The position numbers were made by a program, and so were the translations under genes. The notes under the pieces are model-generated. The model did no database searches. It was not told the DNA's origin and saw nothing but the letters and a program-made list of their open reading frames with translations. From Hymenobacter sp. YIM 151500-1 (GTDB lineage: Bacteria > Bacteroidota > Bacteroidia > Cytophagales > Hymenobacteraceae), in NCBI RefSeq assembly GCF_025979885.1, contig NZ_CP110139.1, positions 4,112,001-4,176,000 on the forward strand: a stretch of DNA of 64,000 bases, in the 5' to 3' direction. Positions 13,718 through 62,292 of this stretch are shown here, in pieces. The stretch's first letter is position 1, and the number at the start of each line of letters is the position of its first letter.

Positions 13718-16700
13718 TTACACCCCGACCGTTTCCTCGCTGCCCAGCTCGCTCAGTATCCGCTGGGCCTGTTGCACGCTCCGCACATCTTCGAAGGTGA
13801 TGATGAGCTGTTCTTTGCGCTCCTTCATGGAGGCCGTGCGAGGGTGGGTTTGCACGTAGCTGAGAATGTTGCCGAACGTGTCGCCCTGGAAGTAGGCCTC
13901 GTTGCCCGTGGCCGGGATGTAGCCTTTCAGCTGGTTTTTCTTCAGCGTCAGCTTCTCGAAACCCAACTGGCAGCCCTGCCAGCGCAAGCGCACGATGTCG
14001 GCCAGCTGCTCTACTTCGGGGGGCAGGGGGCCGAAGCGGTCCACGATGCCAGCCAGCAGCTTGCGTAGGTCCTCGGGGTTTTTGGCCCGGTCGAGCTTGC
14101 TGTAGAGTTGCAGGCGTTCCGAGACGTTGCTCACGTAGCGGTCCGGGATGAGGACCTGGAGGTCGGTTTCGATGTTGCACTCCTTGGGGCCGCTGGTGCC
14201 GGCGGCTTCTTGCAGGCGCTGGGTGGGGTCGCCGAGGAACAGGTCGCGGAACTCGGTTTCCTTCAGCTCCTGCACGGCTTCGTCCAGAATCTGGTGGTAG
14301 GTCTCAAAGCCCAGGTCGTTGATGAAGCCGGATTGCTCGCCACCGAGCAGGTTGCCAGCCCCGCGGATGTCCAGGTCGCGCATGGCCACGTGGAAGCCCG
14401 CGCCCAGGTCCGAAAACTCTTCGAGCGTGCTTAGGCGCTTGCGGGCGTCGGAGGGCAGGCCGGCCACCGGGGGCGTGAGCAGGTAGCAGTAGGCCTTTTT
14501 GTTGGAGCGGCCCACGCGGCCGCGCATCTGGTGCAGGTCGCTCAGCCCGAACAAGTGGGCGCGGTTGATGATGATGGTGTTGGCGTTGGGAATGTCGAGG
14601 CCCGATTCGATAAGGTTGGTGCTCACCAGCACGTCGTACTCGCCATCCACGAACTTCATCATACGCTTTTCGAGCAGGTCGCCCTCCATCTGGCCGTGGA
14701 TGTAGGTGACGCGGGCATCGGGCACGAGGCGCAAAATCATGTTGGCCAGCTCCTCGATGTCCTTCACGCGGTTGTGCACGAAGAACACCTGGCCGCCGCG
14801 CTTGATTTCGCGGGCCACGGCGTCGCGCACCAGCAGCTCATCGAACACGTGCAGCTCGGTTTGCACCGGCTGGCGGTTAGGCGGGGGCGTGGCAATAACT
14901 GACAGGTCGCGGGCACCCATGAGGGAGAAGTGCAGGGTGCGCGGAATGGGCGTGGCCGAGAGAGTAAGCGTGTCCACGTTTACCTTCAACTCCTTGAGCT
15001 TGTCTTTGGTTTTGACCCCAAACTTCTGCTCCTCATCGATGATGAGCAGGCCCAGGTCCTTGAACTTAATGTCCTTGTTGGTGAGGCGGTGGGTACCGAT
15101 GAGGATGTCGGTTTTGCCCTCGGCCACGCGGGCCAGCGTCTCCTTGATCTGCTTGGTGCTCTTGAAGCGGTTCACGTACTCCACCGTCACGGGCAGAGCC
15201 GCCAGCCGCTCCCGAAACGTTTTGTAGTGCTGCATGGCCAGGATGGTGGTGGGCACCAGCACGGCCACCTGCTTGCCGTCGGCCACGGCCTTGAAGGCCG
15301 CCCGGATGGCTACTTCCGTTTTGCCAAAGCCCACGTCGCCGCACACCAGCCGGTCCATGGGGTGGGGCACCTCCATGTCGCGCTTCACATCTTCGGTGGC
15401 CTTGGCCTGGTCGGGGGTGTCTTCGTAGATAAAGCTCGACTCCAGCTCAGCCTGCATGAAGGAGTCGTGGGCGAAGGCGTGGCCGGGTGCGGTTTTGCGC
15501 TTGGCGTAGAGCCGAATCAGCTCGGCGGCAATGTCCTTGACCTTTTTCTTAACCGACTTTTTCTTGTTTTCCCACTCCGGCGAGCCCAGCTTGCTCATGG
15601 TGGGCGGCGTGCCCTCGGCCCCCGAGTACTTGGCAATCTTGTGCAGGGCGTGGATGCTGACGGTCAGCACATCGTCGTCGCGGTACACCAGCCGGATGGC
15701 CTCCTGGAGCCGGTCGTTGATGGTAACCTGGGTGAGGCCGGCGAAGCGGGCAATGCCGTAGTCCTGGTGTACCACGTAGTCGCCGGGCACCAGGGTGCGC
15801 AGCTCTTTCAGCGTCAGCGCCTTTTTCTTGGAGAACTTGCGTCCCTCCTGGGCCCGGTAAAACCGCTCGAACAGCTGATGGTCAGTGTAGATTACCAGCT
15901 TGAGCTGTTCGTCGATGTAGCCTTCGCGCAAGCCGAGTAGCAGGTGCTGGAATTGCACGTTGTTGTCCAGCTCGTCGAAGATGGTGCGCAGGCGGTCGGC
16001 CTGGCGCACCTGCTCGGCGGCAATGATGTTGGTGTAGCCTTTTTCCTGGTTTTCGTGCAGGTTCTTGACGAGGCGGTTGAAGTCCTTATTAAAGGAAGGC
16101 TGGGGCTTGCTGCTGAACTGGAACTCCTCGGCCCCGGTCTTGTAATGAAACCGTTTGCCGAACTCCACCACCGAGAAGGCATCGAGCAGCTTCTTGAACG
16201 TCTTGCCCGACTCAAACAAATCCTCCGGCTTGCTCACAATCTGCACACCCCCCGACGATTCCAGCAGCTCCTTGAAACCCTGCTCGGCCCGGTCAAACGA
16301 CTCTTCCACCACGTCCAGGGTCTGGCGCACGTCCTTGGCCCAGATGGCGGTGTTGCGGGGAATGAAGTCCAGAAAGGCCTCCCGCGTTTCTTGCAGCAGC
16401 TTGGTTTGCACGTTCGGGATGATGCTCACCTGCTGCCGCTTCTCCACCGACAGCTGCGTCTCAGGGTCAAACGTCCGAATCGTCTCCACCTCATCCCCGA
16501 ACAGCTCAATGCGGTACGGCAGCTCGTTGGCGTAGGAGAAGATGTCCACGATGCCCCCGCGCACGGCAAACTGCCCCGCCTCGTACACAAAGTCGGTCCG
16601 CTCGAAGTCGTACTCGGCCAGCATGTCGCTGATGAAGTTGACATCCAGCTTATCACCGATTTTCACCAGGAAGGTGTTAGCCACGAGGCTTTTCTTGTTG

Positions 16701-17335
16701 ATAACCTTCTCAAACAAAGCCTCGGGGTAGGTGACGATGAGGGCGCCTGGGGCCTCACCCCCCGGCCCCCTCTCCTTCAGAGAGGAGGAGCCTGACGATT
16801 CACGTCCGCTCCTCGCGTCTGGCTCCCCCTTCTCTGTAGGAGAAGGGGGTTGGGGGGATGAGGCACTACGGTGGGTATTCAGCCGGTTCAGCACCTCGGC
16901 CCGCATGAGCACGTTGGCGTTTTCCGTCTCGTCGAAGGAATACGGGCGCTTATAGGAGCTGGGAAACAGCAGCGGCTCTTCGCCAGGTAGCAGGTGCTGG
17001 AGGTCGGCGAGGAAGTAGGCGGCCTCGTCCCGGTCGTGGAGGATGAAGAGGTGGTGCTGATCGGGAAACTCACGGTGCAGGGCGGCGGCCAGCACGGCGT
17101 CCTGGGAGCCCACCAAGCCGCGCAGGTACAGGCGCACCGGGGCTGTTTCGGCCGCGGCCCCGGCCCGCAGGCTATTGCGCGTGGCCGGGTTCAGGCGGGC
17201 CCCAACGGTCAGCACGGTGGGGTCGAGAGCGTAGAGCTTGAGAAAATCGGAGACCTTCAAAACGTAGTTCGGCTGGGGAGAGAAGCAAAGGTAGAAGCCC
17301 GGCCGGATGGTTTTCCGGTCGGGCAGAGGTGGCAC
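13718..17335 (-). CDS. mfd: Transcription-repair coupling factor Mfd
   Basis: Up to 1205 residues. Order: UvrB-like N-terminal module (to about 370), RNA-polymerase-interacting CarD-like domain (about 510-600, LVPGDYVVHQDYGIARF), RecG-like translocase motor with GDVGFGKTEVAIRAAF (Walker A), LLIIDEEQKFGV (DEEQ) and STNLIESGLDIPNANTIII...QMRGRVGRS, and the C-terminal TRCF domain. It removes stalled RNA polymerase and recruits UvrA to template-strand damage. The annotated start may be too long: the family-like sequence begins near LKVSDFLKLY, where a TTG at 17260 could serve. About 37-43 residues near 156-198 are encoded by a palindromic repeat inserted in frame. Confidence 0.97.
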   Translation of the reverse strand: MPPLPDRKTIRPGFYLCFSPQPNYVLKVSDFLKLYALDPTVLTVGARLNPATRNSLRAGAAAETAPVRLYLRGLVGSQDAVLAAALHREFPDQHHLFILHDRDEAAYFLADLQHLLPGEEPLLFPSSYKRPYSFDETENANVLMRAEVLNRLNTHRSASSPQPPSPTEKGEPDARSGRESSGSSSLKERGPGGEAPGALIVTYPEALFEKVINKKSLVANTFLVKIGDKLDVNFISDMLAEYDFERTDFVYEAGQFAVRGGIVDIFSYANELPYRIELFGDEVETIRTFDPETQLSVEKRQQVSIIPNVQTKLLQETREAFLDFIPRNTAIWAKDVRQTLDVVEESFDRAEQGFKELLESSGGVQIVSKPEDLFESGKTFKKLLDAFSVVEFGKRFHYKTGAEEFQFSSKPQPSFNKDFNRLVKNLHENQEKGYTNIIAAEQVRQADRLRTIFDELDNNVQFQHLLLGLREGYIDEQLKLVIYTDHQLFERFYRAQEGRKFSKKKALTLKELRTLVPGDYVVHQDYGIARFAGLTQVTINDRLQEAIRLVYRDDDVLTVSIHALHKIAKYSGAEGTPPTMSKLGSPEWENKKKSVKKKVKDIAAELIRLYAKRKTAPGHAFAHDSFMQAELESSFIYEDTPDQAKATEDVKRDMEVPHPMDRLVCGDVGFGKTEVAIRAAFKAVADGKQVAVLVPTTILAMQHYKTFRERLAALPVTVEYVNRFKSTKQIKETLARVAEGKTDILIGTHRLTNKDIKFKDLGLLIIDEEQKFGVKTKDKLKELKVNVDTLTLSATPIPRTLHFSLMGARDLSVIATPPPNRQPVQTELHVFDELLVRDAVAREIKRGGQVFFVHNRVKDIEELANMILRLVPDARVTYIHGQMEGDLLEKRMMKFVDGEYDVLVSTNLIESGLDIPNANTIIINRAHLFGLSDLHQMRGRVGRSNKKAYCYLLTPPVAGLPSDARKRLSTLEEFSDLGAGFHVAMRDLDIRGAGNLLGGEQSGFINDLGFETYHQILDEAVQELKETEFRDLFLGDPTQRLQEAAGTSGPKECNIETDLQVLIPDRYVSNVSERLQLYSKLDRAKNPEDLRKLLAGIVDRFGPLPPEVEQLADIVRLRWQGCQLGFEKLTLKKNQLKGYIPATGNEAYFQGDTFGNILSYVQTHPRTASMKERKEQLIITFEDVRSVQQAQRILSELGSEETVGV
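16753..16863. repeat. Family B palindromic element inside mfd
   Basis: The segment begins CCTCACCCCCCGGCCCCCTC and ends with the inverted counterpart GAAGGGGGTTGGGGGGATGAGG, i.e. two head-to-head copies of the family B element also seen at 17449-17490 and 62116-62158. It stays in frame with mfd, and the encoded residues (SSPQPPSPTEKGEPDARSG... then ...SSLKERGPGGEAPG) are unlike Mfd. They fall in the loop between NRLNTH and ALIVTYPEALFEKV. Confidence 0.85.
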
Positions 17336-17406: not shown

Positions 17407-17551
17407 GTCATCCTGAGCGGCGCGAAGCATCTCGTCCGCTTTGTTGGACCTCACCCCCCGGCCCCCTCTTCAAAAGAGAGGGGGAGCCTGATGATTGAAG
17501 TTAGCCAGCGGTAGAGATGCTTCGACTCCGCTGCGCTGTGCTCAGCATGAC
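17407..17551. repeat. Family A repeat carrying an inserted family B element
   Basis: The outer arms (GTCATCCTGAGCGGCGCGAAGCATCTC and the complement of GAGATGCTTCGACTCC...CTCAGCATGAC) are family A, as at 2868-2987. In its loop, at 17449-17490, lies a family B element (CCTCACCCCCCGGCCCCCTC...GAGAGGGGGAGCCTG). Sequence on both sides of B (CCGCTTTGTTGGA and GAAGTTAGCCAG) continues the family A loop. Confidence 0.85.
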
Positions 17552-17560
17552 GTTCTACTT

Positions 17561-17652
17561 GTCACCTGTCACCTGTCACCTGTCACCTGTCACCTGTCAC
17601 CTGTTACCTGTCACCTGTCACCTGTCACCTGTCACCTGTCACCTGTCACCTA
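17561..17652. repeat. Heptamer tandem repeat (GTCACCT)n
   Basis: About thirteen head-to-tail copies of GTCACCT, with one GTTACCT variant near 17622. The tract ends where the promoter-like TATCTTTG of the next gene begins. Such short-unit tracts can change copy number by replication slippage. Confidence 0.9.
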
Positions 17653-62039: not shown

Positions 62040-62292
62040 TGTCATTGCGAGGCGGAGCCAATCCGTCCTTCTCCGGGCGCTAAGCGTCCGACCTAGCTAA
62101 AGCTTTGCCGTGGCGCCTCACCCCCCAGCCCCCTCTCCGAAAAAGGAGAGGGGGAGCCTGGCGTCATATTATACAACTGGTTCCTGACTTCTAGCAGATG
62201 TCAGGGGTTTTTCGTACTCGGTTGCTTGGATAGAGAAAAGGACGGCTTGACGCCGCTTGATGCGCGGAATGTCCTGCCTCCGCGCAATGACA
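62040..62292. repeat. Composite repeat: family F arms with inserted family B element
   Basis: Outer arms begin TGTCATTGCGAGGCGGAG and end with a divergent inverted counterpart (CCTCCGCGCAATGACA); both arms share CCGTCCTT..CTC further in. Inside, at 62116-62158, is a family B element (CCTCACCCCCCAGCCCCCTC to GAGAGGGGGAGCC) flanked on both sides by TGGCG. It lies downstream of the envC-like stop codon. Confidence 0.75.

Follow-up and report, generated by a model that had tools for sequence, protein, structure and literature searches.

The mfd gene of Hymenobacter sp. YIM 151500-1, which encodes the transcription-repair coupling factor, carries an inverted pair of REP-like repeats inside its reading frame. 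The window analyzed here is a stretch of 64,000 nucleotides from this 4.9 Mb genome (contig NZ_CP110139.1, positions 4,112,001 to 4,176,000), in which mfd occupies 13718–17335 on the minus strand as an open frame of 1205 codons with a GTG start (the true start may differ); Mfd is identified by the NCBIfam model TIGR00580, matched at 982 bits against a cut-off of 800, and by Pfam domains. The pair lies at 16753–16863 with the frame kept, just as a preliminary description of this DNA had it, and the length check proposed there gives a clear answer: 111 nt is a multiple of three, i.e. 37 codons' worth, in a frame that is free of stops and that encodes Mfd residues ∼158–195. The insert begins with CCTCACCCCCCGGCCCCCTCTCC and runs on into a diverged inverted partner. 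Its first arm (16753–16800, plus strand) is of the type that we call CGG, with CCTCACC on the outside and GAGCCTGACGA (CGTC on the other strand) on the inside; its second arm (16818–16863, minus strand) is diverged, with a CCCCCTTCTCC variant that is also present in the Mfd linker of genome G066, the ends of both arms having been set by eye. Housing the dimer is a hypervariable linker of 48 residues (residues 151–198; 16742–16885, minus strand).

The same arm is found again at two further places, which places the mfd insert in one repeat family with them, as the preliminary description held. A single intergenic copy adjoins the start of mfd at 17449–17499 (plus strand; 84% identical to the first arm over 17446–17501), and a further arm match lies at 62116–62158 (plus strand). 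With at most three mismatches, the window thus holds three arm matches, compared with none in 100 shuffles, and the mfd linker hairpin of this genome has z = −5.9 against dinucleotide shuffles; the hairpin at 16753–16863 is not a product of chance. The surroundings of the copy upstream of mfd are themselves repetitive: a tandem 7-bp repeat, (CACCTGT)n, lies beside it at 17557–17651, and an 18-nt inverted repeat, 89% complementary, flanks the 17449 copy at 17423–17440 and 17507–17524 and is perhaps a second, nested repeat family.

What does the insert become in the protein? In an AlphaFold2 model of Mfd residues 21–348, which is of moderate quality (mean pLDDT 66), residues 157–193 have pLDDT below 50 and form a coil that connects a long helix to a strand; five other stretches also fall below 50. 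The strand after the linker aligns by sequence with chain 2b2n_A, a solved Mfd fragment from E. coli, from position 104 onward; the portion of that chain to which UvrB chains are similar as well begins shortly after. The stretch encoded by the insert is predicted to be disordered and lies upstream of the UvrB-interaction domain.

The repeat family and its host genes in the source genome

A strict arm pattern for this family (family B) finds 122 copies genome-wide and none with a reversed control, and as a regular expression it misses diverged copies. Among 100 of the 122 copies, neighbours less than 600 bp apart stand in plus/minus order in 30 of 32 cases and in minus/plus order in none; the typical form is a dimer whose outer ends carry CTCACC. 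There are two arm types: the CGTC tag occurs in 32 of 56 distinct monomers of the CGG type (36 of 115 distinct monomers overall), and 51 of 52 distinct monomers of the TAG type have CTAG as their inner flank. In 18 of 30 pairs (again from 100 of the 122 copies) the loops of the two arms are identical; size-stratified shuffles average 7.9 such pairs, and 18 was reached in none of 5000. Such matching means either that pairs spread intact or that their arms correct one another. We infer that the dimer moves as one unit; palindrome correction after insertion could be an alternative source of the match. The 46 dimers outside the eight host genes described below (simply those absent from the eight gene loci) measure 99–280 and 342–428 bp, and several of the long ones look, by eye, as though they directly adjoin gene ends. 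Longer structures also occur: at L003:1501-1897 and similar loci among L002–L030, a long composite of nested palindromes with inner CCGCGTAGCGG repeats is delimited by family B arms, several such composites being ∼340–430 bp long and some seeming, by eye, to abut the stop codons of neighbouring genes.

The family has also entered other genes. Eight in-frame sites with coding signal on both flanks, mfd included, emerged from 86 element-site tests in the source genome, an incomplete survey that covered 100 of the 122 copies plus some added places and in which some tests are duplicates from overlapping loci. The hosts are mfd, menD (with three arms), ispG, metH, an NFACT/RqcH-like gene, an AddB-like PD-(D/E)XK gene, pnkp, and a DUF5682 gene, the seven others than mfd being named by Pfam/NCBIfam. 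Repair genes as the exclusive target are therefore rejected for the source genome, given that menD, ispG, metH, the NFACT/RqcH-like gene, and the DUF5682 gene are among the hosts. Additionally, the coding copies follow a frame rule: all ten coding dimers measured (eight in mfd, two in ispG) end with GAG on a codon boundary, the pattern having missed two of ten Mfd and two of four IspG dimers, and the 46 dimers outside the eight genes fall into length classes of 16, 17 and 13, an even spread over the three. This frame pattern is the one predicted by selection for surviving insertions, with the proviso that several of the ten dimers come from related species and are not independent.

The Mfd linker in Hymenobacter and its relatives

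We searched 120 genomes of the genus, source included, all of which have an mfd match; the linker was read in 119, G108 being dropped for its fragmentary mfd. An in-frame palindromic pair is present at the Mfd linker in nine of these 119 genomes (G000, which is the source, G066, G054, G051, G003, G088, G059, G001, and G021). The carrier species, as named from coordinates or identical linkers, include H. rubripertinctus, H. piscis, H. perfusus (G051), H. aerophilus, H. sp. ISL-91, H. psychrophilus, H. actinosclerus, and H. daecheongensis (G021), and a tenth carrier, H. gummosus, is found among 80 named loci, many of which are of the same species. The expectation that relatives would be free of the insert is thus correct for 110 of 118 genomes and incorrect for eight, which carry pairs. 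Folding separates the two groups: for 51 Mfd linkers of at least 84 nt that were compared with shuffles, z lies between −5.9 and −13.4 in the ten carriers and between −1.4 and +1.8 in the other 41, and for the remaining linkers of the 119 the classification rested on the peptide and the fold energy. Arms and spacers vary between species, the Mfd arm of G021 being of the CCCCTCCCC type.

What occupies this position when there is no pair? In many pair-free close relatives it is a comparably long Ala/Glu/Lys linker, GPKTTAEQ...KETAG (or KDTAG); without a pair, linkers range from 10 to about 51 residues and are non-palindromic, and in Pontibacter and Rufibacter the length is 10 residues in 12 of 12 loci. 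Since pair-free kin have non-palindromic linkers of similar length, the dimer would have entered, and partly replaced, a linker that was already variable, and parts of the old linker do seem to have been exchanged for dimer sequence. Two earlier statements need adjusting accordingly. The pair is indeed an in-frame segment, as was claimed, but 'adding 37–43 residues' overstates the case where close relatives without it often have a linker just as long; and the supposed loop of the UvrB-like module is a segment of predicted disorder directly ahead of the UvrB-interaction domain, in a pre-existing linker rather than a new loop. As for the supply of repeats, family copies number 19–122 per genome in the nine carriers from the genome search, and of ten hand-picked non-carriers five have none and five have 4–53, with G075 (53 copies) an example of a family-rich genome that has no mfd insert.

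How many insertion events are represented? On trees made without the linker, one of protein (63 chosen rows) and one of DNA (55 chosen rows), both quick and with several open forks, the carrier state requires at least seven changes by parsimony. H. gummosus has the dimer and its near kin do not, its flanks being 89–98% identical to those of the pair-free L224; H. gummosus and G021 carry their pairs in far-apart clades, and G021 has a different arm sequence. Both trees place G054 closer to the insert-free G075 than to the carrier G051, and the 100-nt windows adjoining the linker give 94/91% identity for G054 with G075 and 90/86% for G054 with G051, with a mixed picture farther out; local transfer of the Mfd linker between G054 and G051 is unsupported, as the linker-side windows favour insert-free G075. 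The inserts of G000 and G066 have the same odd second-arm variant, and those of G051 and G054 have flanking bases in common. Just left of the linker, G000 is 90% identical to G066 and 84–86% identical to three other genomes, a slight excess that may reflect linker transfer between G000 and G066. In other words, because of the arm and flank details common to G000/G066 and G051/G054, some of the seven changes may instead stem from common ancestry or gene transfer, and we count four events as safe and leave seven as the parsimony figure. The safe events are one in H. gummosus, one in H. daecheongensis (which has its own arm type), one in the H. aerophilus group, and one for the remaining four carriers together.

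The IspG and MenD linkers

Mfd is not the only enzyme with a recurrently filled linker. For IspG and MenD, we considered the best 30 loci each of the 120 genomes searched, together with 20 additional IspG regions. Among 33 folded IspG linkers, a set that excludes short, empty ones, a family B dimer is present in four (G000, G075, G012, and G074), G005 has the CCCCTCCCC type, and some of the others hold inverted pairs that belong to two or three heptad-like types; z is −4.8 or lower in 21 of the 33 and lies between −3.0 and +0.6 in the other 12. By eye these repeat types are dissimilar, and two of the heptad types may be related. The heptad-like pairs of L326–L352 and L370–L372, of GTTGTCA, AATTAGT, and AGCTGTT types, are unlike family B. 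The GTTGTCA type, as taken from G054, is dispersed in G054, G063, G085, and G075, with 92, 81, 61, and 26 matches in the four genomes (a palindromic place may count twice), and has none in the source genome; with a type dispersed in its own genomes and absent from the source, the IspG linker seems to reflect the local repeat pool. Empty sites are available as well: in 14 of 15 regions picked for an expected short linker, the IspG linker has 42–43 residues (the remaining one, L362, was unparsed), compared with 73–82 residues in five C-rich filled linkers. By eye, no target-site duplication is seen at the IspG filled/empty pair, the one site compared, and TGAGGT at the right junction is common to the target and the element end, which hints at microhomology.

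In MenD, arm cores, sought in all 30 loci, occur in five at one linker, within open frames of 649–688 codons; parsing of the MenD linker itself left out 19 of the 30. At G075:C1:3433854-3435702 the menD match is split, the second half containing one TGA and one TAG, which could be due to a frame-breaking insertion or to a sequencing fault. Additionally, MenD linkers among L374–L401 contain odd peptides, QGFEP and DATRVA, that are common to several species and are perhaps yet another dispersed repeat.

Origin and relation to known palindromic elements

We put at roughly 80% the probability that a REP-like dimer spreads in Hymenobacter, that its in-gene copies survive in tolerant linkers, and that several lineages have been hit. 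A non-autonomous palindromic dimer would be moved or copied through these genomes as an inverted pair and would usually land between genes; a copy inside a gene would persist only if its length keeps the frame, if its arms are read in a stop-free phase, and if it sits in a linker where additional or swapped residues are tolerated. The linkers of IspG and MenD, like that of Mfd ahead of the UvrB-interaction domain, would offer just these conditions, and would for that reason be struck repeatedly, in different lineages, by the repeat families of each genome. The insert is probably neutral, or nearly so, for the host protein, and the survival of the repeat in a repair protein of an essential type, to which the preliminary description drew attention, holds in the sense of an intact frame. 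That the repeat is mobile, also suggested there, is implied by its recurrence, the movement itself being a matter of inference with no instance observed within a species. The mover might be a trans-acting enzyme or replication-linked template switching. RAYT, a tyrosine transposase, was considered and rejected: PF01797 (Y1_Tnp) is matched at 18 loci in eight of nine genomes, and the 1.5 kb around each is free of family B arm cores; a single locus shows no more than a lone GGGGTGAG string. Y1_Tnp was the only transposase family sought, a profile search finds no match to it in H. perfusus (G051), and the genome of L204 lies outside the nine.

Could the pairs instead descend from one old insertion in an ancestor, inherited vertically with the arms kept alike while diverging, and lost in most lineages? 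The second-arm variant common to G000 and G066 and the flanking bases common to G051 and G054 fit such a history, and parsimony counts do not separate gain from loss. We nevertheless regard it as improbable: the insert-free kin have one homologous-looking linker, the GPKTTAEQ type, which simple loss would not restore, the 12 Pontibacter and Rufibacter loci have linkers of only 10 residues, and the carriers H. gummosus and G021 sit in far clades, the latter with a differing arm sequence. Spread of a dimer into an already variable linker leaves a different question, namely whether the inserts are kept because they do something, either through an RNA hairpin with a tuning effect on the translation or decay of mfd or through a modified repair protein. 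The hairpins predicted on the coding strand are very stable (−88 to −134 kcal/mol with RNA parameters), and repair genes are hit here, in mfd, the AddB-like gene, and pnkp, and are named as REP hosts in the available text of Di Nocera et al. (PMC3733652), who speculated on mutator effects of REPs in repair genes. Retention for function is unlikely all the same, in view of hosts such as menD, ispG, metH, the NFACT/RqcH-like gene, and the DUF5682 gene, of an IspG linker filled by different repeats in different species, and of Mfd arms and spacers that vary among species.

It is also conceivable that there is nothing here to explain beyond a low-complexity linker arisen by chance, or a fault of assembly or annotation, since many relatives have linkers with simple, GC-rich codons. 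The shuffle z-scores, the 122 genomic copies against none in the control, a like structure in ten genomes, and coding signal on both sides make this very improbable indeed, and we return to a spreading dimer that survives in tolerant linkers as our preferred reading.

The best-known case of palindromic elements within proteins is that of Rickettsia, an intracellular parasite. Going by the accessible portions of two reports, these RPEs are hairpin elements of 105–146 bp that lie between genes and are fused in frame into conserved genes (PMC2229807, PMC10969869), and one RPE-bearing enzyme was reported to be translated and active, with work on an RPE-bearing Gmk cited in the same source (PMC2229807). 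The analogy drawn at the outset stands: the Hymenobacter repeat likewise occurs outside genes and in frame within conserved genes and is absent from the same gene in relatives. It differs in being GC-rich, in being a pair of REP-like units, in its host phylum, Bacteroidota, and in recurring at one linker across species, and the likeness, drawn with no RPE sequence aligned, would be one in the way of working. A second comparison is with the REPIN/RAYT system of GTAG REPs, in which inverted dimers are dispersed through the genome. Family B dimers are inverted and dispersed in the same manner, whereas they flank none of the 18 Y1_Tnp loci from eight of nine genomes.

Also close are the REPs described by Di Nocera et al. 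in 2013, in the part of that paper available (PMC3733652): GTAG and CGTC REPs that are often dimers, some of them intragenic and many of these in replication or repair genes. For CGTC REPs, the same text reports that inverted dimers predominate without a dedicated transposase, mostly downstream of genes; that uvrA, uvrB, and recB are among the genes that contain them; that Bacteroidetes are among the phyla named; that recB of two Xanthomonas has different REPs at about the same site; and that the super-family has an 8–9 bp stem beginning with AT pairs and a CCA tail (PMC3733652). Family B resembles these repeats in being mostly inverted dimers without an associated transposase (only Y1_Tnp having been sought), but it has the CGTC tag in a minority of its monomers, the TAG type having CTAG instead; by eye, its stem is C/G-rich and the CCA tail is absent; and its hosts are Mfd, IspG, and MenD, with the same linker struck in several lineages. 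We found no publication on palindromic or REP repeats of Hymenobacter or on intragenic REPs in Mfd, in a search outside which most subscription journals lay. An intragenic REP or Rickettsia palindromic element is a known kind of thing; what is new is that a single linker has been struck again and again within a genus, and by different repeats.

Palindromes inside proteins are seen here within a genus with genomes from at least 120 species: mfd, ispG, and menD each have them at one linker in several species, and relatives offer both filled and empty sites. Two questions become testable in this setting: are REPs in repair genes selected or merely tolerated, and can short palindromes travel as dimers when they have no transposase of their own? 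More tentatively, and against somewhat unfavourable odds, we consider that a general process indifferent to sequence may operate in Hymenobacter, perhaps in the family, setting dissimilar inverted pairs in frame into the same few linkers of core enzymes. If so, what the inserts have in common would be their paired inverted structure, arising through template switching in replication or repair, and not membership of one transposon family; the linkers would mirror the repeat pool of each species and would give these bacteria a steady supply of new protein sequence.
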